This document shows positions 2,884-45,722 of a stretch of DNA of 64,000 nucleotides, in pieces. Source of the stretch: Candidatus Tiddalikarchaeum anstoanum (GTDB taxonomy: Archaea; Nanobdellota; Nanobdellia; Tiddalikarchaeales; Tiddalikarchaeaceae); the NCBI GenBank assembly GCA_902385255.1, contig CABMEV010000010.1, positions 1 to 64,000 of the forward strand, in the 5' to 3' direction. Both the position numbers and the translations under genes were made by a program. Each line of letters begins with the position of its first letter. Within the stretch, counting starts at the first letter, position 1. Under the pieces are notes generated by a model. It ran no database searches and was not told the DNA's origin. It was given only the letters and a program-made list of their open reading frames with translations.

Positions 2884-3145
2884 GGAGGGAACTTCCTGCT
2901 ACTGTAAAACAACCCGAAAAACTTGTCCTTATACTTTGCTCCACTTTGCAACCTTTCGAACACCGAAAAAGTTACCTTATAGCTGCTCCGATCAAGGCCT
3001 CACTCTTTCAGCAACTAGTCAGTCCCGAAAGACAAAGCTTCGACGCTAGGCATAAGGGGTTTTCCAAGATGATTGCGATAGCAGGGCTTTCAGTCCACCA
3101 GAGACTTGTGGTATAGGGCTTCGTCAGAACCCGACCTATCCCTCC
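2884..3145 (-). ncRNA. ffs: Archaeal SRP (7S) RNA
   Basis: Minus strand: terminal helix GGAGGGA/UCCCUCC; helix-5 pairings CCUGCUAU/GUAGCAGG, CAAUC/GGUUG, CCUUAUGC/GUAUAAGG; 10-bp helix CUGAAAGAGU/ACUUUUUCGG enclosing AGGCCUUGAUCGGAGCAGC (SRP54-binding GGAGCAG); two small Alu-type hairpins near the 5' end; TATA-like TTTATAATTTAAAA about 25 nt upstream. Confidence 0.75.
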
Positions 3146-32913: not shown

Positions 32914-34866
32914 ATGGTTGTTTGTTCTGAAAGAATTACTGGGTATTTAAAGAGCCTTGAGGATGAAACGTTAAAGGAGTATAGTATTGCAGAACAGGCA
33001 AGAAGCAAGGGCTTGGACCCTGAAGATAAGGTTGACATTCCATTAGCTGTTGATGTAGCTGACCGTTGTGAAGGTTTAGTTGGAGCATCCGTACCTGAAA
33101 TTGTAGGAACCGGTATCTCCGCAAGGATTCGTGAGCTTGAAAAACAGTACAGCAGCGGAGACTGGAGAGTTGCATTAATAATAGGTGCAGAAGTTGCTAA
33201 AAACAAGTTCTTCACATTCACATCTCTGGAAAAGGCTATGGAAGCAGGAGTTAGAGTAGGATTAGCTTACATCACACTTGGAGTTACATGCGCCCCGCTG
33301 GAAGGATTCATAGAATTAAAATTAAAGAAAAGAATGGACGGGGCAGGGGATTATTGTTCTATATTCTTTGCAGGTCCGATAAGGGCGGCAGGCGGAACTG
33401 CGGCCGCAGTCACTGCATTAATTGCGGATTATATCCGCAGGGAGTGCGGCGTTAAAGAATATGACGTTCAGCCTGACGAGTTAAACCGCTACTACGCTGA
33501 ATGCCAGGATTATGATGAGAAAGTTTCACGCCTGCAGTATCGTCCTTCAGAGGAAGAGTTAAAGTTCATGGTTCAAAAACTTCCAATAGAATTAAACGGG
33601 GACCCAACAAGCCAGTTAGAAGTTAGCAATTTTAAGAGATTGAAGCGCGTCGAGACTGACTTAATCAGAGGAGGAATGTGCCTCGTACTATGCGAGGGAT
33701 TATGCTCCAAGGCAAAAAAGATGATTGTTAAAATTCAGAAATGGGGAGAGAGCATGGGCTTGAAATACTGGATGTTCCTTCAGGATTATGTTGATCTTCA
33801 GAAAAAGATTAATGCAGCTCTTGCAAAGCCAAAAACAGACGAGCCATTGTCACTAGTTAAGGTGAAACCTAACGCTAAATTCATTGAGGAAATAGTTGCA
33901 GGCCGTCCAGTATTCTCACACCCGTTGTCAATAGGCGGTTTTCGGTTAAGGTATGGGCGGAGCAGGCTTAGCGGCCTCGCATCAGCATCAGTGCACCCGG
34001 CAACTATGAGGATAAGTGATGATTTTATAGCGACAGGAGTTCAGTTAAAAGTTGAACGCCCAGGTAAGGCATGCGCAATCAGCCCGTGTGACTTAATATC
34101 AGGCCCACTTGTGAAATTGAAGAACGGCGAAGTTTTATGGCTCGAGTCCGAAGAGGACGCGTTAAAATACAGGAAGGATATTCTTGAAGTCTTATTCATT
34201 GGTGACATACTCTTTTGCTTCGGTGACTTCATGGAGAATGGTTCAATGCTGGTGCCTCCTGGCTACGTTGAAGAATGGTGGCGCGAGGACTTAAACAAGG
34301 CTCTGACAGCAAAGCCGTTGGAGGAAGTTCAGAAGAAAATCAGCGTGAATATCGGTGCAGTATTAAAAGACCCGCTTCGCATCAAAGTTTCATTAAGTGA
34401 TGCATTAATATTATCGAAAGAGTTAAACATACCTTTATACCCGAAACATGTTTTTTTCTGGAAGAATATTTCAGTTAATGAGTTAAAGGAATTGGTTGAA
34501 TCTTTAAAGAAAGCTGACTTGTCAAAACAGATTCTTCCGTTAAGTGTTAAGCCAATATTGGAGAAGATTTACCTGCCTCATAAAGTGGTTGGCGGAGAGT
34601 TAGTATTGTCAAAGGATGTTTTTGACGCGCTGCTTGTTAATCTAGGATTTGACAATGGCTTTAAGGAAATAATAGGGGACAATGCTCTTGATATATTAAA
34701 TAAGATTTCGGGATTGAAATTGAACGATATCTCTGGCACTTTTGTAGGAAGCAGGATGGGCCGCCCTGAGAAAGCAAAACTAAGGCATATGACAGGCAGT
34801 CCTCAGGGTTTATTCCCTGTTGGCGACGAGGGAGGAAGGCTCAGGAGTTTTAACGCTGCAAGCTAG
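32914..34866 (+). CDS. polC: DNA polymerase D large subunit (DP2), N-terminal portion
   Basis: 650 aa ending ...SRMGRPEKAKLRHMTGSPQGLFPVGDEGGRLRSFNAAS-TAG. Confidence 0.95.
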   Translation: MVVCSERITGYLKSLEDETLKEYSIAEQARSKGLDPEDKVDIPLAVDVADRCEGLVGASVPEIVGTGISARIRELEKQYSSGDWRVALIIGAEVAKNKFFTFTSLEKAMEAGVRVGLAYITLGVTCAPLEGFIELKLKKRMDGAGDYCSIFFAGPIRAAGGTAAAVTALIADYIRRECGVKEYDVQPDELNRYYAECQDYDEKVSRLQYRPSEEELKFMVQKLPIELNGDPTSQLEVSNFKRLKRVETDLIRGGMCLVLCEGLCSKAKKMIVKIQKWGESMGLKYWMFLQDYVDLQKKINAALAKPKTDEPLSLVKVKPNAKFIEEIVAGRPVFSHPLSIGGFRLRYGRSRLSGLASASVHPATMRISDDFIATGVQLKVERPGKACAISPCDLISGPLVKLKNGEVLWLESEEDALKYRKDILEVLFIGDILFCFGDFMENGSMLVPPGYVEEWWREDLNKALTAKPLEEVQKKISVNIGAVLKDPLRIKVSLSDALILSKELNIPLYPKHVFFWKNISVNELKELVESLKKADLSKQILPLSVKPILEKIYLPHKVVGGELVLSKDVFDALLVNLGFDNGFKEIIGDNALDILNKISGLKLNDISGTFVGSRMGRPEKAKLRHMTGSPQGLFPVGDEGGRLRSFNAAS

Positions 34867-34875
34867 AATGGTGTA

Positions 34876-36393
34876 GTGACTGCGGAGTTCCCTTTGTTTT
34901 ATTGTGCGAAGTGCAATAAGGAGACTGTTTACAGGACTTGCGAGTACTGCGGAGCAAAGTCTGATTTGAAATACTTCTGCAATAAGTGCAAGAAAATTAG
35001 TATGATGAAGTCCTGCTGCGGTATCCCGACAAAGCCTTACAATAAGAGGCCAATTAATATTAATCATTATATCAGGCTCGCTCTTAAGAGGTCAGGTCTT
35101 CAGATGCCTCAGTTAGTGAAAGGAGTGAGAGGAGTCTGGGATAAGGAGAGATTGACTGAGGATTTCATGAAGGCGCTTCTTAGGGCAAAAAATGATGTCT
35201 TTGTTAACAAGGACGGCACAGTTAGATATGATATTATTGAGACAGTGTGCACGCATTTTAGGTGTTCAGAGATAGGGTTGTCAATTGAGAAGGCTAAAAA
35301 ATTAGGCTACACTAAAGACATTGAAGGCAGCGCTCTGGAGAATCAGAATCAAGTGTTAGAACTCCTCCCTCAGGATGTAATTCTTCCTGACTGCAAGGAA
35401 TGGCATGATGCGAGCGCTTCAGATTTCCTGCTTAGGGTATGCAGCTTCATAGATGACGAACTGCGTTTTTTTTACAACCTTCCGCCTTTCTTTAATTTCA
35501 AAGTTAAGGATGACTTAATCGGCATCCACATAATAAGCCTGGCTCCGCACACCAGTGCTGGAATCGTGAGCAGGGTGATTGGTTTTAGCAAGACTCAGGG
35601 TATGTATGCTCACCCTTACCTGCACGCAGCATGCAGGCGTAACGCTGATGGTGACGAGTTAGGCATCATATTATTGCTTGATGCGTTATTGAATTTCAGC
35701 AGGAAATTCCTGCCTGATCACAGAGGCACCAGGACGATGGATGCGCCTTTAGTTTTGAGCGTAAAATTAGACCCTATGGAAGTTGACAGTGAAGCTTTCA
35801 ATGTCGACGTTGTCGACCATTACCCGCTGGAATTTTACGAGGCTGCAGTTAACTGCAAGATGCCTGCAGAGTTCACAGGCATAAAAAGGGTTAATGATTT
35901 GTTGAATAAGCCTGAACAGTTTGAAGGTTTAAAATTCACTCATGATACGAGCACAATGAATCAGGGCCCTTATGTCAGTGCGTATAAGACTTTAGAGTCA
36001 ATGGATGATAAGATGCAGTCGCAGATAGGTCTTGCGATGAAATTGAAAGGAGTTGATGCAACGGACGTTGCAAGATTAGTTATTGAAAAGCATTTTCTGA
36101 AGGATTTGAAAGGTAATCTTAGAAAGTATTCAAGGCAGGGTTTTAGGTGTGTTAACTGCAATGAGAAGTACAGGAGGCCTCCTCTTTCAGGGAAGTGCAA
36201 CGCCTGCGGAGGAAAGATAGTTCTAACAATAGCGGAAGGCAGTGTTAAGAAATATCTTGAAGCTTGCCTTAATCTCGGCAAAAAATTCAAATTATCACCT
36301 TATCTTCAGCAGGACTTGATGCTTCTTGAACGCAGGATTGAAGGATTATTCGGCAGGGCTGCCACGAAACAAATCAGACTGAGTTCCTTCTGA
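34876..36393 (+). CDS. polC: DNA polymerase D large subunit (DP2), C-terminal portion with catalytic NADGDE
   Basis: 505 aa, same frame as 32914..34866; CRRNADGDELGIILLLDALLNFSRKFLPDHRGTRTMDAPLVL; C-terminal PIP-like QIRLSSF. Confidence 0.95.
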   Translation: MTAEFPLFYCAKCNKETVYRTCEYCGAKSDLKYFCNKCKKISMMKSCCGIPTKPYNKRPININHYIRLALKRSGLQMPQLVKGVRGVWDKERLTEDFMKALLRAKNDVFVNKDGTVRYDIIETVCTHFRCSEIGLSIEKAKKLGYTKDIEGSALENQNQVLELLPQDVILPDCKEWHDASASDFLLRVCSFIDDELRFFYNLPPFFNFKVKDDLIGIHIISLAPHTSAGIVSRVIGFSKTQGMYAHPYLHAACRRNADGDELGIILLLDALLNFSRKFLPDHRGTRTMDAPLVLSVKLDPMEVDSEAFNVDVVDHYPLEFYEAAVNCKMPAEFTGIKRVNDLLNKPEQFEGLKFTHDTSTMNQGPYVSAYKTLESMDDKMQSQIGLAMKLKGVDATDVARLVIEKHFLKDLKGNLRKYSRQGFRCVNCNEKYRRPPLSGKCNACGGKIVLTIAEGSVKKYLEACLNLGKKFKLSPYLQQDLMLLERRIEGLFGRAATKQIRLSSF

Positions 36394-36403
36394 AACTATT
36401 CTT

Positions 36404-36814
36404 TTAGATTGTTAAGAAGATGATGCACAATATTGCAGAGATAAAACCCAGTATTGTTTTAAGAGTGACTTTCTCTTTCAAAATAGTAAATCCAAGTATG
36501 CCTTGCATTAACATTATACCAACACTTTGCAGTGGGGAGACCAATGATACAGGAGCCATCCTGATTGCAATATAATAAAATGATAATCCTGTGGAAACAA
36601 GAAAACCGGATAATAAGGCTAAAAATAATTCATGTTTGCTTATTGTTAGTTTGAATTTCTTGACTAAAACGTATATTATAACTCCGATTAATCCCCCTGC
36701 GTACTGCATGAACAGCAATAATAATGGATTAAAACTTGAAGATAGAAGTTTAACTATAAAAACCAGAATGCCCTGCAAAAACATTGCTGCTAACGCGTAA
36801 AAAAACCATTCCAT
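36404..36814 (-). CDS. Half-size EamA/DMT-family transporter
   Basis: 136 aa, 4-5 TM; LVSPLQSVGIMLMQGILGFTILKEKVTLK. Confidence 0.75.
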   Translation of the reverse strand: MEWFFYALAAMFLQGILVFIVKLLSSSFNPLLLLFMQYAGGLIGVIIYVLVKKFKLTISKHELFLALLSGFLVSTGLSFYYIAIRMAPVSLVSPLQSVGIMLMQGILGFTILKEKVTLKTILGFISAILCIIFLTI

Positions 36815-36821
36815 TAATTTT

Positions 36822-37214
36822 TCACCTTAACAAGTAAACACTCACCACTCCAAATAATAATCCGAGCGCAATGTTCAAATTCAGCGGTTCATGCAGTATG
36901 ATAAAACCCAGTATTGCTGAAATAAGCAGGTTAAGAGTCCATATTGGGCCGGCCCTTGTTAAACTGCCTTTAACTAATGACACATAAAAAAGAGTTAGTG
37001 AGCAGAAATATCCAAAACCAAGCAGCAGTAATAATGGATTAAATATTAATTCTCCGCCAGTAAGTAAGTTATATGATGCGACGAGAGGTGTTGCTAGCAT
37101 GAACTGGTAAAGCATTACCACATTTGGCTTAACTTTTTTTACCAATTTTTTAACGATAAAGGAGTTAAATCCCATAAATAAGACTGCGAGAACCAGGTAA
37201 ATTTGCCAAATCAT
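36822..37214 (-). CDS. Half-size EamA/DMT-family transporter
   Basis: 130 aa, 4-5 TM; GPIWTLNLLISAILGFIILHEPLNL. Confidence 0.75.
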   Translation of the reverse strand: MIWQIYLVLAVLFMGFNSFIVKKLVKKVKPNVVMLYQFMLATPLVASYNLLTGGELIFNPLLLLLGFGYFCSLTLFYVSLVKGSLTRAGPIWTLNLLISAILGFIILHEPLNLNIALGLLFGVVSVYLLR

Positions 37215-37259: not shown

Positions 37260-37781
37260 ATGGATGCATTAAAGGCGATTAATACCCGGCGCAGTATCAG
37301 GAAATACAAGCAGAAAAAAATCTCAATCCAAACAGTTAAAAAATTAATAGGCGCCGCGAGAAATGCTCCATCATCTTTTAATGAGCAGTCATGGGTTTTT
37401 ATTACCGTTACGAACAAGGAGACTAAGGAAAAACTGGCAGAGCATAAAAGCCAGAAGAGCAAATTCATGAAGGATGCGCCGTTAATAATCGCATGCTGTT
37501 ATGACACCACAAAGACTAGGACTAAGGCGCATAATCTTGAAAACGTTGCAGTAGCGTCAGAGAATATTCTAGTTGCTGCCAACGCATTAGGGCTTGGGGC
37601 ATGCTACGTAGGCGGATTCGACCCTGAATATCCTGAAATTGAAGATTCAATAAACATTGCATTGAAACTGCCTTCTAACATAAAAATAGTTTGCTTAATA
37701 ACAATCGGCTACCCTGATGAGAAACCTGCAAAAAAAAGTATGCGCCCGATATCTGAAGTATGGAAAATGGAAAAATACTAG
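37260..37781 (+). CDS. Nitroreductase-family protein
   Basis: INTRRSIRKYKQKKIS...AARNAPSSFNEQSWVFI...ANALGLGACYVGGF. Confidence 0.92.
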   Translation: MDALKAINTRRSIRKYKQKKISIQTVKKLIGAARNAPSSFNEQSWVFITVTNKETKEKLAEHKSQKSKFMKDAPLIIACCYDTTKTRTKAHNLENVAVASENILVAANALGLGACYVGGFDPEYPEIEDSINIALKLPSNIKIVCLITIGYPDEKPAKKSMRPISEVWKMEKY

Positions 37782-37815: not shown

Positions 37816-37995
37816 ATGGAATTAGAAAACATATTACCTAAAAATTTCAAAAAAACAGCGGACTTAAAAAATGAAGTAATAACCGGAAATTATATTCTTA
37901 ATATCAATGAGATGTGTGATTATAGACCGCAAAAAATATACTCTATACTCCTAGGAAAAAAATTAAAAAAGGAAACAATTATTTTTTTAATTTGA
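37816..37995 (+). CDS. Possible 59-aa ORF
   Basis: MELENILPKNFKKTADLKNEVITGNYILNINEMCDYRPQKIYSILLGKKLKKETIIFLI; TATA-like TATTTAAATA upstream; below the ORF-track cutoff. Confidence 0.35.
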   Translation: MELENILPKNFKKTADLKNEVITGNYILNINEMCDYRPQKIYSILLGKKLKKETIIFLI

Positions 37996-38791
37996 TAATT
38001 TCGTCTATGAATTCGTCAGCTGTCAATATGTCTTTTCTAAATCCTTTTATCTTCTGAGCCAGTTGTGTTATGATTGGAGGGCTCACGTCAGTCTTCTTTA
38101 ATAAATCGCTGTTCATGAATGCTGTTCTCTTATCTCCATCGAAGATGAGATTTGAATCCCACATAACTATCACCCTTGATGCAACTTTCGAAACCAAGTT
38201 CATATCGTGAGAGATTATTATCACAGTATGATTCTTTTGCAGCTCCTTTATCAGCGCTTCTATCTTAACCGTGCCCTCATGGTCCTGGCCTGATGAAGGT
38301 TCATCAAGTATGATAACTTCAGGATTCATCGCAATTATTGATGCTATTGTGACAAGCTTTTTCTTGTTCAAGCTTAAATCAAGAGTGTGCATTTTCTTGT
38401 CCTTCTCCAGTCCGACAATTTCCAGCGCGTTTAACACTCTCTTATTAATTTCCTCTTTTTTCAGATTCAGGTTACCGGGTCCGAAGGCAACCTCGTTATA
38501 GACGCTGTTATTGAATATCTGGTCATCAGGATTTTGGAATACGTACCCTACAATCTTTGATAATTTAGCAGTGTTCTCATTTTTTGTCGAAACACCGTTT
38601 ATCAGCACTTCTCCGCTTGTGGGTTTTAACAGCCCGTTGAAGGTCTTTACAAGCGTAGTCTTTCCGCTGCCATTATGCCCTATTATAGCCACAATTTCGC
38701 CTTTATTTATTTCAAGATTTATATTTCTCAACGCGACCACTCCATTTGGGTAGGAGAACATTAAATTATTGACTTTTATTATAGGAGTCAT
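37979..38791 (-). CDS. ECF transporter ATPase (EcfA-type)
   Basis: Walker A GHNGSGKTT, FQNPDDQIFN, ILDEPSSGQD. Confidence 0.9.
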   Translation of the reverse strand: MTPIIKVNNLMFSYPNGVVALRNINLEINKGEIVAIIGHNGSGKTTLVKTFNGLLKPTSGEVLINGVSTKNENTAKLSKIVGYVFQNPDDQIFNNSVYNEVAFGPGNLNLKKEEINKRVLNALEIVGLEKDKKMHTLDLSLNKKKLVTIASIIAMNPEVIILDEPSSGQDHEGTVKIEALIKELQKNHTVIIISHDMNLVSKVASRVIVMWDSNLIFDGDKRTAFMNSDLLKKTDVSPPIITQLAQKIKGFRKDILTADEFIDEIIKLKK

Positions 38792-39639
38792 CTTTTCATC
38801 ACCTCACATACCATTTCTTCAGCATCTTTCATTGTCAGGCATAAAGGTTTATTCCATAATTTTTTTTCCTTCATCTTGTATGACAGAGTGGTTAACTGCG
38901 ACGGCTCTATTCCGTACTTTTTCAGCAAAGTAATATCTGTAAGAATACTCCTGGCATCACCGTCTGCAGCTATTTCTCCCTTATCCATTATTATAATCCT
39001 GTCCGCGAACTCAGCCAACTGGTCCACGTTTTGGGTGTTCAATAAGATTGTAATCCCTTTGCTTGCAAGTTTTTTAATTAGGTCAAAAACGAGTTTTGTA
39101 CCAAGCGGATCTAACTGCGCGGTCGGCTCATCCATGACGAGTATTTTCGGCTCCATTATTAATACGCTGGCTATTGCAACTTTCTGCTGCTGGCCTCCTG
39201 ACAATTCGAAAGGATTCCTACTGCTGAATTTTTCAAGACCTATCAGTTTAACCATTTCCTCAACACGTTTTATAATCTCATGCCTTTGGATTCCAAGATT
39301 TTCAAGTCCGAATGCGAGTTCTTCCTCGACAGTTGTTCCTGCACCGCTTAACTGGTTTGTAGGCGACTGGAATACGAGTCCGACTATTGTTGACAGTTTA
39401 GAAAGGCTGGAAGTTTCAACATCGACTCCGTCGACAATTATATTTCCTTCAAATTTTCCAGGGTAAAAGTGAGGTATTAATCCGAGGATTGATGAACATA
39501 AAGAACTCCTTCCAGCTCCAACTCTACCTATCATTCCTACAAATTCGCCTTTTTTAATTGTTAAATTAATTTTTTTAATTATCGGAGTATTGAATCCTTC
39601 ATAAGTCCATGAGAAATTTTTGAATTTTAGTATATCCAT
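38788..39639 (-). CDS. ECF transporter ATPase (EcfA-type)
   Basis: GRVGAGRSSLCS, FQSPTNQLSG, LSGGQQQKVAIA. Confidence 0.9.
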   Translation of the reverse strand: MDILKFKNFSWTYEGFNTPIIKKINLTIKKGEFVGMIGRVGAGRSSLCSSILGLIPHFYPGKFEGNIIVDGVDVETSSLSKLSTIVGLVFQSPTNQLSGAGTTVEEELAFGLENLGIQRHEIIKRVEEMVKLIGLEKFSSRNPFELSGGQQQKVAIASVLIMEPKILVMDEPTAQLDPLGTKLVFDLIKKLASKGITILLNTQNVDQLAEFADRIIIMDKGEIAADGDARSILTDITLLKKYGIEPSQLTTLSYKMKEKKLWNKPLCLTMKDAEEMVCEVMKR

Positions 39640-40403
39640 GATAACACCCCTACTGTTACGGAGATAATCACCGTTGCTATTATTATATTCCTGTCTCTTT
39701 TTCTAAATACTGTCTGCCTGAAACTTGTCTTTTCGCAGTCTGCTGAGAATGCTCTCGCTTCCAACGCCATTGTGCGCTCTACTGCTTGCTGTACTGAACC
39801 TATGAATAATGGCCCGAGGAGCGGCACGTACGCGCGGAGTCTCTTTATTATATTCCCTGAAACGTCTAATCCCCTGCTTTTCTGCGCGTCAATTATGGTT
39901 TCAACCTGCATTTGTATGCTTGGTATTACATGCAGTGTGGATAATACTATATATCCCACTTTATACGGCATTTTAAGTTTTCTTAGCGCGTTTACTAAAT
40001 CCCCTGGGTGTGTTGTCAGCACGAATAAGAATCCGTAAACCATCATTACTAAGAGTCTGGCTGATATTTCTGCCGCGTAAATAATTCCTTCCTTCCATAT
40101 TATTATGTTAGTGAAAGGTATTGTATATAGCGGGGTTAACCGGAAGGGATAGAACAATCCTTGTATGCTGAATAATATTGCGAAAATAATCAATAAGTAC
40201 CTTATTGGTTTGAACACGTCCCACGTCAGCTTTGATATATAAGACAACGGAAGTATTAGTGCGAATAATATTAAATTATTAACAGGTCCAAGAATGAATG
40301 CGAGTATTATAACGCAGATGAGCGCTGTTAATTTAGTTAGCGGGTTTAATTTATGGATTAACGAGTCTCTTTCTATGTAGGAAATTAGAATTGTTCTTGG
40401 CAT
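39627..40403 (-). CDS. ECF transporter transmembrane protein EcfT
   Basis: SLIHKLNPLTKL..., IDAQKSRGLD, LEARAFS. Confidence 0.9.
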   Translation of the reverse strand: MPRTILISYIERDSLIHKLNPLTKLTALICVIILAFILGPVNNLILFALILPLSYISKLTWDVFKPIRYLLIIFAILFSIQGLFYPFRLTPLYTIPFTNIIIWKEGIIYAAEISARLLVMMVYGFLFVLTTHPGDLVNALRKLKMPYKVGYIVLSTLHVIPSIQMQVETIIDAQKSRGLDVSGNIIKRLRAYVPLLGPLFIGSVQQAVERTMALEARAFSADCEKTSFRQTVFRKRDRNIIIATVIISVTVGVLSWIY

Positions 40404-40439
40404 AATTAAAAAATAAAAAAAGAATATTTAATAAGTTGT

Positions 40440-41081
40440 TTATTTTATCAGTTTCGCGTATCTGAAAAGCTTCACGTATTTCTCAGGTAGTCCTTTTATA
40501 GTCAGCCAAGGCAAGTATGTTGCTATTATTGCTTTATCAAGAAGATCTGTTAAGAATCTTGAAGCAATTATTGATGTCCAGAATTTTGCCCCTGTCGCTT
40601 GGAAGAATGCGAATACTAAGTCAATACCTGTACCTGAAATACCTCCCATTACCAATACTGATATAGGTGAAGTAATCAGTGTTGCAGTTGCTGCGAGCAC
40701 TACACCAATTATAGGTACGTGCCACCATATCTTAAACCATCCTTTGTACGTGCAGTATCCTGCTACTAATCCAAGACCTAATTGTACTAATCCGAAAAAT
40801 ACTGATGTGGGTCTGCCATACGCTATCGCTGTTACAACATTTGTTAAAAACCCAGCTGCTCCTGCAACCCAAGGTCCTGCAAGCATTGCAGCAAATATTG
40901 TCCCTATTGTATCTAAAAATATAGGAAGTCCAAGCGCAGTTGATATTAATCTACCAACTTGGTTGATTCCAATAGCAATAGGTATCAAAACGATTGCTAT
41001 GGTAGTAAAGTCTTTGCCAATATTCTTGAATATACTCTCTTTTTTATCGTTCTTTTCTACCGATTTACTCTTTATCGCCAT
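40440..41081 (-). CDS. ECF transporter S component
   Basis: 213 aa, multi-TM, LPIFLDTIGTIFAAMLAGPWVAGAAGFLTNVV; in operon with A/A/T genes. Confidence 0.85.
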   Translation of the reverse strand: MAIKSKSVEKNDKKESIFKNIGKDFTTIAIVLIPIAIGINQVGRLISTALGLPIFLDTIGTIFAAMLAGPWVAGAAGFLTNVVTAIAYGRPTSVFFGLVQLGLGLVAGYCTYKGWFKIWWHVPIIGVVLAATATLITSPISVLVMGGISGTGIDLVFAFFQATGAKFWTSIIASRFLTDLLDKAIIATYLPWLTIKGLPEKYVKLFRYAKLIK

Positions 41082-41816
41082 TTAACCATTCACCTCCTTT
41101 AGTTTTTTAATTGCATCCAGTGCAATTATAATAGTATTTTTTTCTCCTTCTAATCTTTGTTTTTCCTGTTTTATGATATCTTTTGATGTTTCTTTTTTAG
41201 CAATATTCATTCCCGCGTAAAATATAAAGCCTACTCTGAACCCTTTTATCTCCCCGAGTGTAAATAATATTGAGGATTCCATGTCGCTTCCGATTACTCC
41301 CATCTCTCCCCATTTTTCCATTAAATCCCTGTGATTTTTTGTATAGAACGCGTCACAGCACATCGTAATCCCATAAAAGAATTTTTTCTTCGACTCTTTT
41401 GCGCTGTCTATTAATGCTTTTAACACTTCAAAATTAGGCACTGCAGCAAATCCTTCAGGGGCATATGATAGTGAACTTTTTTCTTCCTTACAGACTCCTG
41501 TGCTTATTACAATATCCCCTGTGTCTATTTCTTTTTTTGTAACCCCTCCGCTTCCAACTCTGATTATTGTCTTTGCCCCGCACTGCACTAACTCCTCTAT
41601 GACAATAGCAGCGCTTGGTATCCCAATGCCCGTTGATGCCAGTGTGACAGGGACTCCTTTATATTCTCCATTATATACGACGAATCCTCTGTTTTCGCTT
41701 ACTTTTTTAGGATTCTTTAACATTAAACTTGACCTTTCAACACGTCCAGGGTCTCCCATTATCAGAACGTATTCGTTTATATCTTTCTCAGAAACATGCA
41801 AATGAGGAGTTATCAT
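41082..41816 (-). CDS. Nucleoside phosphorylase (PNP/UDP family)
   Basis: MITPHLHVSEKDINEYVLIMGDPGRVERSS...; start moved from 41894 to ATG at 41816 matching the paralog. Confidence 0.88.
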   Translation of the reverse strand: MITPHLHVSEKDINEYVLIMGDPGRVERSSLMLKNPKKVSENRGFVVYNGEYKGVPVTLASTGIGIPSAAIVIEELVQCGAKTIIRVGSGGVTKKEIDTGDIVISTGVCKEEKSSLSYAPEGFAAVPNFEVLKALIDSAKESKKKFFYGITMCCDAFYTKNHRDLMEKWGEMGVIGSDMESSILFTLGEIKGFRVGFIFYAGMNIAKKETSKDIIKQEKQRLEGEKNTIIIALDAIKKLKEVNG

Positions 41817-41860
41817 AAAAAGATAATACATACCCCTTTTTTTTATAACCTTCGTAATTG

Positions 41861-42655
41861 TTATTTGAATACTTTTTTTGCCTCTTCTATGCATTCTTCA
41901 ATAGTTAAGCACGGTTTCAGGCCTAATTTTTTGGAAATCTTTAGCGCTTCAGGAGGTTCAACAAATGCCGTGCACAAAGCTTTGTTATTCTGGAATATTT
42001 TAATTTTTGAATCGTCAGCTATTATTCTTCCATCGCACATGACTATTATTCTATCGACCATTCTTGCGATGAACTCCATATCGTGTGATATGATAATGAC
42101 TGTTTTATCTTTTAATGAGTGGATTATTTTTTCGACAGCAATTTTTCCTTTATAATCCTGTCCTGTAATCGGTTCGTCAAATATTATTATTTTAGGGTCC
42201 ATTGCCAATACGCTTGCTATAGTAAGCAGTTTTCTTTCGCTGTAATTAAGGTTTGAAGGGTGCACGTTTCTTTTTTCATAAAGTTTTATGTTTTTTAATA
42301 CACTGTCTGTCCTGTGTTTGATTTCATTTTTTTTAAACCCCTGCTGTACCAGTCCGAATTCTATCTCCCCTTTTATTGTCGGGTTGAATATCTGGTCCGC
42401 CGGGTTTTGGAAAACGAATCCGACTGTTTTGGACATATCTGCTATTTGAACATTTCTTGTGTCAACGCCGTTTACTATTACGCTTCCTTTTGTCGGCTTA
42501 AGCAGGCCGTTTAAATTTTTGATAAGAGTTGTTTTTCCTGCACCATTTTGGCCTATTATGCCTATTTTTTCGCCGTCGTTTATTTTAAGATTCAGTTCTT
42601 TTAATGCATTTGTTCCAGTTGGATAAGTAAAAGTTAAGTTATTTATTTCAATCAA
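41861..42655 (-). CDS. ECF transporter ATPase (EcfA-type)
   Basis: GQNGAGKTTLIKN, FQNPADQIFNPT. Confidence 0.9.
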   Translation of the reverse strand: MIEINNLTFTYPTGTNALKELNLKINDGEKIGIIGQNGAGKTTLIKNLNGLLKPTKGSVIVNGVDTRNVQIADMSKTVGFVFQNPADQIFNPTIKGEIEFGLVQQGFKKNEIKHRTDSVLKNIKLYEKRNVHPSNLNYSERKLLTIASVLAMDPKIIIFDEPITGQDYKGKIAVEKIIHSLKDKTVIIISHDMEFIARMVDRIIVMCDGRIIADDSKIKIFQNNKALCTAFVEPPEALKISKKLGLKPCLTIEECIEEAKKVFK

Positions 42656-43449
42656 ACTTTCAGCATCTCCATGATTTTTTTGTTATAGTTCATTTTGTAC
42701 AAAAGTTCTGTCTCTGCAGGAACTTCAATATTGTTTCTTTTTAATAATTTGTAATCAAGAAGCACTTCTATGGGTTTTCCTATTTTTACTATCTTGCCTT
42801 TGCTCATTACTATTACGCGGCTTGCAAGTTCTCTTATTATATTCATTTTTTGTGTTATCAGTATGATTGTCTGTTTTCCTTTCAATTTTTTAAGTTCTTC
42901 AAAAACTTCTTCTGCACCGCTTGGGTCTAACTGGCTTGTTGGGTCATCAAGCACTAATATTTTCGGCTTCATTGCCAATACGCTCGCTAACACCACTCTC
43001 TGCTGCTGGCCTCCGCTTATATCGAAAGGGTCTTTGTATCTTATTTTTTCTATATCAAGTAATTTTAAGACTGAGTTTATCCTGTTTTTCATCTCTTCGC
43101 GAATGAGCCCCAAGTTTTCCAGCCCGAAAGCTATCTCTTCTTCGACAGTGGTGCCATACCCTGTTAGTTGTGTTAAGGGGTTTTCAAGAACCATTCCAAC
43201 TATTTTTGAAATATCGCTTATATCTATGTCTGCTGTTTTTATGCCCGCAACTTCGACTTCCCCGGACATTATGCCGTTTACAAAATGAGGTATTAGCCCG
43301 TTTATGCATTTTGCAAGTGTGCTTTTTCCAGATCCTATGCTGCCTATTATAACTGCTAATTCACCTTCTTTAATTTCTAGATTAATATTCCGCAAAGCGT
43401 AATTATTCGTCCCTGAATATTTAAAATTCAGATTTTTTATTGTTATCAT
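42652..43449 (-). CDS. ECF transporter ATPase (EcfA-type)
   Basis: GSIGSGKSTLAKC, ISGGQQQRVVLA; start moved to MITIKNLNFKYSG (43449), giving a 4-bp overlap with ecfT. Confidence 0.9.
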   Translation of the reverse strand: MITIKNLNFKYSGTNNYALRNINLEIKEGELAVIIGSIGSGKSTLAKCINGLIPHFVNGIMSGEVEVAGIKTADIDISDISKIVGMVLENPLTQLTGYGTTVEEEIAFGLENLGLIREEMKNRINSVLKLLDIEKIRYKDPFDISGGQQQRVVLASVLAMKPKILVLDDPTSQLDPSGAEEVFEELKKLKGKQTIILITQKMNIIRELASRVIVMSKGKIVKIGKPIEVLLDYKLLKRNNIEVPAETELLYKMNYNKKIMEMLKV

Positions 43450-44198
43450 ACAATTATTATTCCTCCGACTATCACTGCCAGAATGATTGAGGTTATAGTG
43501 TCTGTTTTTCTCCACAGCTCTTCTCTGAAAAAAGTCCTTTTGTTTTTGGAAAAGAAGGCTCTAAGTTCAAGGCTTATGCTTCGTTCATATGCCTCGTCAA
43601 GCATAGATAAGATAAGCGGCATCAGGAGAGGTATGTAAGCCTTTATTCTTTGTATTATTCCTCCGATTATTCGGAGCCCCCTTGCCTGCTGTGCGTCCAT
43701 TATTTTTTTTGCTTTTTCCTCCATTAATGGTATGAATTGGATTGTTGCCAGTGTGACAAAAGCTGCTTGTTTTGGAAGGCCGAGTTTTGACAGCGAAGCT
43801 ACCAGGTCTGCAGGGTTAGTCGTAAATATTAATATATAAGAAATAGAAACGAAGGATAATAATTTTGCAAAATAGTTAAATCCTATGATTAATCCGTCTA
43901 ACTTTATTGATAGAAAGTAGAATGTCGCTATTACTTGTGTTGCTGCGGGGTTAAGTATTCCGTGGAATATTACCAGCGTTATTAAAAGAGGCGTCATTAT
44001 GAACCCTAGGGTTTTGAAGAATTCTTTTGGTATTTTTGCCGCAAATGCCAAGATGAAGGACAGTGCGGAGAACAGTGATAACTTGTATGTTTCCCTGATT
44101 AGAAAACTTAGGAATATAATAATAAGAGCTAAGAATATTTTTACGGCAGGGTTTAATTTATGGATTAAACTGTCTTTTTTTATATAATTAGTTAACAT
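43446..44198 (-). CDS. ECF transporter transmembrane protein EcfT
   Basis: SLIHKLNPAVKIFLALII, MDAQQARGLR, LELRAFF. Confidence 0.9.
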   Translation of the reverse strand: MLTNYIKKDSLIHKLNPAVKIFLALIIIFLSFLIRETYKLSLFSALSFILAFAAKIPKEFFKTLGFIMTPLLITLVIFHGILNPAATQVIATFYFLSIKLDGLIIGFNYFAKLLSFVSISYILIFTTNPADLVASLSKLGLPKQAAFVTLATIQFIPLMEEKAKKIMDAQQARGLRIIGGIIQRIKAYIPLLMPLILSMLDEAYERSISLELRAFFSKNKRTFFREELWRKTDTITSIILAVIVGGIIIV

Positions 44199-44223
44199 AA
44201 AAAAATAAAAAAGAAGAGATTAC

Positions 44224-44844
44224 TTATCTCTTTTTCTTTTCTACAGCTGATTTTTTCTGGGTTTCAGATTTGAAGTACTTATCAGGCAATAAGTTCATTA
44301 TTGCGAACACTAAGAATACAGATATTGCTTTATCCATTATGTCCCCAAGCAGTTCTGATCCAATAACTGCAGTAAGTAATCCGTGTGTAGTGCTTGTTCC
44401 TAAGAATAATGCAGTCAGCAAGTCTACTCCTCCGCCTGTTACTCCGCCGTATATATAGACTGTTATTGGTGCTGATATCGCTGTTGAAATCAGTGCTAAA
44501 GCTACAGTTACTCCTAACAAGTCTATTATGCCTGACTTCTTGTTGTATCTTCCTATCTTGTATAAATATCCAGTCAGAAGGCCGACTGCCATATTTACTA
44601 CGAAGTAAGGTCCGCCTACTGGGTCGAATGTAACCCATTTTATGATGTTAGTTGCGGCTCCTGCAACTGCACCTGTCCATGGTCCTGACAGTACGGCAAC
44701 AAGCATTGTACCAATTACGTCAAGCCATACTGGCAGTTTTAGTGTTTGTGCTATAAATGCACCAACCCAGTTTATTACAATACCAACTACGATTAATAAT
44801 AAACCATAGCTGTTAAATTCCTTTTTAATTTCTTTAAAATCCAT
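44224..44844 (-). CDS. ECF transporter S component
   Basis: 206 aa, LPVWLDVIGTMLVAVLSGPWTGAVAGAATNII; similar to 40440..41081. Confidence 0.85.
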   Translation of the reverse strand: MDFKEIKKEFNSYGLLLIVVGIVINWVGAFIAQTLKLPVWLDVIGTMLVAVLSGPWTGAVAGAATNIIKWVTFDPVGGPYFVVNMAVGLLTGYLYKIGRYNKKSGIIDLLGVTVALALISTAISAPITVYIYGGVTGGGVDLLTALFLGTSTTHGLLTAVIGSELLGDIMDKAISVFLVFAIMNLLPDKYFKSETQKKSAVEKKKR

Positions 44845-44891
44845 TAATATTAACCTCCTTTAGGTATTAATTAAAAAAGAGCCGACTATTC

Positions 44892-45632
44892 TTATAATTT
44901 TTTTATTGCATCGAGCGCCGCTATAATTGAATTGTTTTCTCCAATACTTAATTCTCCAACTCCTTTTTGCACATCTTTTTGAAATTTTTCAACGTCTTTT
45001 CCTGCGTCAGCATTTCCGTAAGCGCTGACAATATTCAAAATCGAGCCTGTTTTTAATCCTTCAATTTTTCCAACTAAGAATATTGTTGATGATTCAAAAT
45101 CGCTTCCTAAAACCCCTACTTTGGACCAGAATTTTTCAATTGCCGGAGTGTTCTTTGTATAAAAACTGTCATGGCTTCTGATTGTTCCGGAATAATATCT
45201 TAATTTTAATTCTTTAGAGCTGGAAATTAAAGCATTAAATACTGAACTATCTGCAACTGCAGGAACATCTTTAGCGGCATACATATCTGTTGTACCATCC
45301 TGCCTGATTGCCTGTTCAGGAATTATTAATTCACCAATTTTCATATCTCTCTGCAGGCTTCCGCAGCTTCCTATTCTTATTACCACTTTAGCGCCAAGCT
45401 CTGCCAGTTCATGGAGAGCTATAGCAGTACTTGGTCCTCCCATTCCGCTTGAGCAGACAGTTATCTTTTTGCCTTTATACGCACCGTTATAAATTGTAAA
45501 TTCGCGGTTGACATTAATTTTTTTAGAGTTCTCTAAATGTTTAGCTATTCTAATAACTCTTCCAGGGTCACCCGGCATTAAAACGTAAGGATTGACATCC
45601 TTTTCAGTTATTTGAAGATGAGGAGCTGTCAT
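44892..45632 (-). CDS. Uridine/nucleoside phosphorylase
   Basis: MTAPHLQITEKDVNPYVLMPGDPGRVIRIAKHLE; SSGMGGPSTAIALHELAELGAKVVIRIGSCG. Confidence 0.92.
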   Translation of the reverse strand: MTAPHLQITEKDVNPYVLMPGDPGRVIRIAKHLENSKKINVNREFTIYNGAYKGKKITVCSSGMGGPSTAIALHELAELGAKVVIRIGSCGSLQRDMKIGELIIPEQAIRQDGTTDMYAAKDVPAVADSSVFNALISSSKELKLRYYSGTIRSHDSFYTKNTPAIEKFWSKVGVLGSDFESSTIFLVGKIEGLKTGSILNIVSAYGNADAGKDVEKFQKDVQKGVGELSIGENNSIIAALDAIKKL

Positions 45633-45722
45633 ATTCTGTAGGAGTTGTTCTTTTTTTTTATAGTCTTCGCAAGTGAAATTTTAGAAATATTTTTAAGCAT
45701 GGTATTAACCCATTCAATTAAA

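Follow-up and report, generated by a model that had tools for sequence, protein, structure and literature searches.

Two five-gene cassettes, each encoding a nucleoside phosphorylase-I family protein (P) and the parts of an energy-coupling factor (ECF) transporter, that is, a substrate-binding S component (S), the transmembrane component EcfT (T), and two ATPases (A1 and A2), are arranged head to tail on the minus strand (45632-37979) of a 64,000-nucleotide stretch of contig CABMEV010000010.1 of Candidatus Tiddalikarchaeum anstoanum. This whole stretch is referred to as the window. Read along the minus strand, the ten open reading frames (ORFs) follow the order 2P-2S-2T-2A1-2A2 and then 1P-1S-1T-1A1-1A2, and the cassette proteins match PNP_UDP_1, ECF_trnsprt, CbiQ, and ABC_tran above the Pfam gathering scores. 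An initial annotation, made from the sequence alone, had described the same layout, and its coordinates hold apart from two gene starts. The start of 1P is very probably at 41816 (ATG, MITPHLHV) and not at 41894, and that of 2A1 is likely at 43452 (MITIKNL) and not at 43515, to which its ORF reaches, because the protein lengths then match those of the relatives and only small gaps or overlaps remain.

Cassette 2 consists of 2P (44892-45632; 246 aa; PF01048, 127 bits), 2S (44224-44844; 206 aa; PF12822 above cut-off), 2T (43446-44198; PF02361, 103 bits; with the coupling motifs DAQQARG and ELRA), 2A1 (42652-43452), and 2A2 (41861-42655). Cassette 1 consists of 1P (41082-41816; 244 aa; PF01048, 113 bits), 1S (40440-41081; 213 aa; PF12822 above cut-off), 1T (39627-40403; PF02361, 105 bits), 1A1 (38788-39639), and 1A2 (37979-38791). 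All four ATPases were assigned with Pfam, NCBIfam, and a comparison of motifs. Since the genes are separated by only 0 to 47 nt or overlap shortly (the stop codon TAA of 1P directly abuts the ATG of 1S), it is plausible that all ten are transcribed together. By inspection, a TATA-like element, CTATAAAAAA, is located 22 to 31 nt upstream of the start codon of 2P (45654-45663, minus strand) and is a candidate promoter for the ten genes.

The best named S family for both S components is NF045596 ("CD3073 family putative ECF transporter S component"), which is matched over the full length with 117.6 bits (1S) and 112.9 bits (2S). The same family ranks first for every relative scanned, always with 104 to 134 bits and thus under the curated cut-off of 180, and the family check proposed in the initial annotation therefore named a nearest family whose threshold is not reached. 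1S and 2S are predicted to adopt the six-helix ECF S fold: the AlphaFold models (mean predicted local distance difference test scores [pLDDT] of 90 and 89, respectively) retrieved ECF S components as all of the top 19 and top 14 Foldseek matches, with FolT, ThiT, RibU, PanT, and others in the top ranks (probability 0.99-1.00, modest E values of 0.01-0.2, template modeling [TM] scores of 0.43-0.63). Seven residues, including Asp42 and Asp171 of 2S, are invariant across 55 S relatives, and both 1S and 2S keep the invariant residues of the family. A scan of viral contigs with 2S yielded no relative. Clustering with vitamin or metal S families, an outcome that the initial annotation had named as speaking against nucleoside import, was not seen either, as neither protein matched BioY, ThiT, RibU, FolT, CbiM, QueT, or others above cut-off in Pfam, NCBIfam, or the PDB. 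The only vitamin-family signal was for folate (TIGR04518, 20-22 bits at a cut-off of 60; FolT in the PDB, E = 0.001-0.06).

In each cassette, S, T, and two ATPase genes are encoded together and every protein falls into the expected family, as in group I ECF transporters. A search of the 1.16-Mb genome with PF02361 found two EcfT genes only, both of them in these cassettes, and no riboflavin-type S component (PF07155) was found in the genome. The cassettes therefore look like dedicated importers, in agreement with the claim that each has its own S component, EcfT, and ATPase pair.

The two ATPases of a pair are not alike, a trait that the initial annotation does not mention. 1A2 and 2A2 have intact Walker A, Walker B, and switch His motifs and a degenerate signature (LSLNKKK and LNYSERK, respectively). 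1A1 keeps LSGGQ and has Arg in place of the Walker A Lys (GRVGAGRS) and Gln in place of the switch His; 2A1 keeps an intact ISGGQ, its catalytic Glu is replaced by Asp (Walker B DD), and its switch His is replaced by Gln. This division of motifs is a property of the family: in the A1-A2 pairs adjoining such S genes, A2 lacks the SGG of the signature (no LSGGQ) in 47 of 47 cases, and A1 has it in 44 of 47. In archaeal cassettes of the same type as cassette 1 (type 1), A1 shows the Lys-to-Arg exchange in Walker A and Gln or Asn at the switch His, and the ATPases of Enterococcus as well as the fused ATPases of haloarchaea are split in the same way. The solved EcfA2 4mki, one of the few solved chains through which the ATPases of other ECF families were compared, carries LSGGQ where 1A2 and 2A2 do not. 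Judged by motif, one composite site keeps everything and the other is degenerate. Hence, a single competent ATP site is expected, formed by Walker A, Walker B, and the His of A2 and the LSGGQ of A1. Asymmetric ABC transporters are a precedent for such a single competent composite site. In the closed state of ECF-FolT2, both ATP sites hold nucleotide and engage the signature motif (PMC10368641).

The nearest enzyme family of the phosphorylases is uridine phosphorylase (TIGR01718; 195 bits for 1P and 196 bits for 2P at a cut-off of 280; solved examples 4lnh, the closest to 2P, 3qpb, and 4g8j). The phosphate and ribose residues are kept in 1P and 2P (GDPxR, NR[EG], IR.GS, M/F-E-S), and a loss of nucleoside-binding residues, which had also been named as a finding that would count against nucleoside cleavage, was thus not seen. 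What sets them apart from uridine phosphorylases is the base site. The base-binding loop insertion of VcUP and SpUP is missing, and at the aligned positions of the uracil-binding Gln and Arg, where the loop is short, the residues are N and R in 1P and N and P in 2P. Where E. coli has Asp204, the proton donor to purines, 1P carries Met and 2P carries Ser; in the relatives, this position is M, L, or I in type 1, as in uridine phosphorylases, and in type 2 (the type of cassette 2) it is Ser in 2P and in the second cassette of a distant relative (L057b) and Asp in the Meg22 genomes. Going by these residues, cassette 1 seems to lean toward pyrimidine nucleosides, and those of cassette 2 point to neither base class. 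Of the purine-versus-pyrimidine division suggested earlier, the pyrimidine-like character of cassette 1 remains, and neither base-site signature is canonical. Phosphorylase reactions are reversible; in the cell, 1P and 2P presumably work in the direction of phosphorolysis.

Further evidence for the substrate comes from the relatives. When genomes were scanned with the S alignment, 261 relatives were obtained, 80 of which were kept. Neighborhoods were counted at 69 loci with a called S gene, PfkB and LacI being told apart by simple motif labels. Within 6 kb of the S gene, 43 of the 69 loci encode a nucleoside hydrolase or phosphorylase, as do 31 of the 41 with a complete T-A1-A2 set. In Bacilli, the usual order (Pfam-checked) is LacI regulator, nucleoside hydrolase, S, T, A1, A2, and ribokinase; these operons share with the cassettes the same transporter type next to a nucleoside-splitting enzyme, but they have a hydrolase instead of a phosphorylase, include a regulator and a kinase, and comprise one cassette. 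The Bacilli hydrolase tested scored best with RihA, a pyrimidine hydrolase (338 bits, cut-off 433). In Clostridia, a phosphorylase encoded close to S exceeds the cut-off for uridine phosphorylase. The transporter is followed by a phosphorylase, or has one nearby, in Chloroflexota, Actinomycetota, and Spirochaetota. In annotated records, S genes of this family have nucleoside hydrolase genes next to them in Haladaptatus, Halomarina, Enterococcus, and a Lacticaseibacillus plasmid and nucleoside deoxyribosyltransferases in another Haladaptatus; one relative, from Salmonella, has no nucleoside-enzyme neighbor. DPANN relatives show the order P-S-T-A-A, several of them with a PfkB kinase; in the Meg22 genomes (L058 and L059), A2 is followed by a pair of neighboring genes, of which one matches PHP_C weakly, and by a PfkB kinase. 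Because relatives in Bacillota, Chloroflexota, Actinomycetota, Spirochaetota, haloarchaea, and DPANN archaea adjoin nucleoside hydrolases or uridine-type phosphorylases, a pairing of nucleoside import with cleavage of base from sugar, as proposed in the initial annotation, is well supported. Its view that the arrangement is uncommon did not hold, since the S family stands beside nucleoside-cleaving enzymes in many bacteria and archaea.

These neighborhoods also bear on other substrates. ECF transporters of known substrate mostly carry vitamins or metals, and the folate ECF transporter (FolT with EcfT, EcfA, and EcfA') shares the S fold and the four-part architecture with the cassettes. Together with the weak likeness to FolT, this could mean that 1S and 2S carry a vitamin or a free base and that the phosphorylases are neighbors by chance. 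We consider this improbable, as the S family adjoins two unrelated families of nucleoside-cleaving enzymes (hydrolase and phosphorylase) in several bacterial phyla and two archaeal groups. Identity to the folate transporter is about 20%, the signature of its EcfA2 differs as described above, and the gene context of the cassettes is nucleoside, not folate. Queuosine or another modified nucleoside or tRNA-derived compound, from which the linked enzyme would free the modified base, is an even more distant prospect. It is true that QueT/QrtT are ECF S components for a purine-derived compound and that queuosine salvage employs nucleoside hydrolases such as QueK (PMC11130926), but in Pfam and NCBIfam, 1S and 2S match PF12822 and NF045596 and none of the QueT families, the enzymes linked to the cassettes are uridine-type, those tested in bacteria are RihA-like or a uridine phosphorylase, and the ribokinase and LacI regulators point to the use of ribose.

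The tandem arrangement invites the idea of a recent duplication, segmental duplication having been one option offered before, and the same gene order, head to tail, would fit it. The paralogues are, however, only 35 to 47% identical. In the P and S trees, the genes of the two cassettes fall into two separate, matching clades. Type 1 groups with L118, L102, L105, G035, and L057a, and type 2 groups with L057b and Meg22 genomes. The trees of T, A1, and A2 agree on type 1 and resolve type 2 less well. Approximately unbiased (AU) tests reject sisterhood of 1S and 2S (p = 8e-46) and of 1P and 2P (p = 5e-38). The phylogenetic check thus discarded a recent event. As a single archaeal origin of both types is not rejected (p = 0.19 for S and 0.30 for P), such an origin and separate acquisition are both candidate histories. 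Furthermore, the distant relative L057 (G279) has both cassettes apart and in the opposite order (cassette 1, nitroreductases, EamA pair, cassette 2, PfkB), in contrast to the window (cassette 2, cassette 1, nitroreductase, EamA pair). G035 belongs to the same family as our archaeon; there, the syntenic site between the genes of the DNA polymerase D large subunit (DP2) and TctA holds a lone S gene with a 31% match to 2S, and the type-1 cassette is located elsewhere. A recent tandem duplication in this lineage is therefore hardly credible, and the direct tandem is a juxtaposition of two old cassettes, i.e., the comparisons indicate anciently diverged paralogues that now stand side by side. The lone, divergent, type-2-like S gene of G035 (L031, 7080-7763), at the place of both cassettes in the window, may share the cassette-1 module encoded elsewhere in that genome.

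Whether the two paralogues differ in substrate is a separate matter. The two cassettes might have one broad range of nucleosides in common, with the second copy adding no more than capacity or a different affinity; their architecture is identical, 1S and 2S have the invariant residues in common, and relatives survive with one cassette. Nevertheless, the split into clades is old and runs in parallel for P and S, the base-site residue differs between the types (M/L/I in type 1; Ser in 2P and L057b; Asp in Meg22), and we regard a shared substrate range as rather unlikely, though a serious alternative.

The host genome (13 contigs, 94% complete) was inventoried with a few family searches, to which the following statements refer. 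PF01048 detected three genes, 1P, 2P, and a fusion of methylthioadenosine (MTA) phosphorylase and adenine phosphoribosyltransferase (MTAP-APRT) in one 431-aa protein (G000:C3, ~124.9-126.2 kb; L145, 1495-2790). HPRT (above cut-off), phosphoribosyl pyrophosphate (PRPP) synthase, a PurF-like protein, and PurC (SAICAR synthetase) were detected as well. Not found were the OTCace family (PyrB/ArgF), uracil phosphoribosyltransferase (UPRT), PyrE (OPRT) among the Pribosyltran matches, and PfkB. Hence, pyrimidine synthesis appears incomplete, and purine de novo synthesis is not absent outright, since PurC and the PurF-like protein are present; the scavenging lifestyle suggested in the initial annotation thus has partial support. 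A route from ribose-1-phosphate by a PfkB kinase to type III Rubisco was considered and rejected, because PfkB was not found and an in-frame stop, a single TAA, interrupts the Rubisco gene (G000:C1, ~53.7-55.0 kb; L148, 6696-7970).

Taken together, it is probable that each cassette forms a dedicated (group I) ECF nucleoside importer with a cytosolic phosphorylase and an asymmetric ATPase pair and that the two probably differ in their preferences. In our model, the S component captures a nucleoside on the outside and delivers it by toppling, powered by the EcfT and the A1 and A2 ATPases of its own cassette, with one competent ATP site made of Walker A, Walker B, and the switch of A2 and the LSGGQ of A1, the other site being degenerate. 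The phosphorylase would then use phosphate to split the nucleoside into the free base and (deoxy)ribose-1-phosphate; purine bases may be rescued by HPRT and the MTAP-APRT fusion, and ribose-1-phosphate could be converted to ribose-5-phosphate and further to PRPP. The two cassettes, as old paralogues, would probably serve different nucleosides. Several observations weigh against this model. Both S components fall short of the NF045596 cut-off, and 1P and 2P stay under every equivalog cut-off, lack the long UP-type insertion at the base site, and lack the Asp/Asn of DeoD-type purine phosphorylases, which leaves them with a non-canonical base site. With no UPRT found, free uracil would be without a UPRT route to UMP, and with no PfkB found, the ribose-1-phosphate kinase route is absent. 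In addition, related Bacilli predominate in the 69-locus sample, and the count therefore overstates independence, which the spread over phyla does not.

The genes around the cassettes include those of archaeal DNA polymerase D, transcription factor B (TFB), and tRNA synthetases. A convergent nitroreductase-family gene (37260-37781, plus strand; PF00881) and two half-size genes of EamA (drug/metabolite transporter [DMT]) transporters (36404-37214, minus strand; PF00892 on 36822-37214) accompany type-1 cassettes in DPANN relatives, by synteny for both EamA genes; an exporter role for bases or metabolites is possible. The DP2 gene (32914-36393) contains one in-frame TAG at 34864, and the counterpart on L031 is uninterrupted; a real split, a mutation, and an assembly error are candidate explanations. 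A signal recognition particle (SRP) RNA at 2885-3144 (minus strand) matches the bacterial large SRP model just above cut-off.

The arrangement is real and conserved but not unique, and the surprise is moderate, since the tie of the S family to nucleoside enzymes is widespread. The literature searched showed no ECF carrier for ordinary nucleosides, and searches on CD3073, on ECF with nucleoside hydrolase or uridine phosphorylase, and on ECF with DPANN nucleoside transport returned nothing on point; an earlier prediction in Rodionov 2009 is possible. That this is a wide ECF family for ordinary nucleosides, with a one-site motor and, in a DPANN archaeon, two specificities, is a tentative proposal to which we give slightly less than an even chance. 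The consistently asymmetric ATPase pair is a natural test of the number of ATP sites that an ECF transporter needs. For a widespread S family to which NCBIfam gives no substrate, the cassettes provide a substrate prediction, and they supply named genes for asking how nucleosides are acquired by DPANN archaea whose nucleotide synthesis is reduced.

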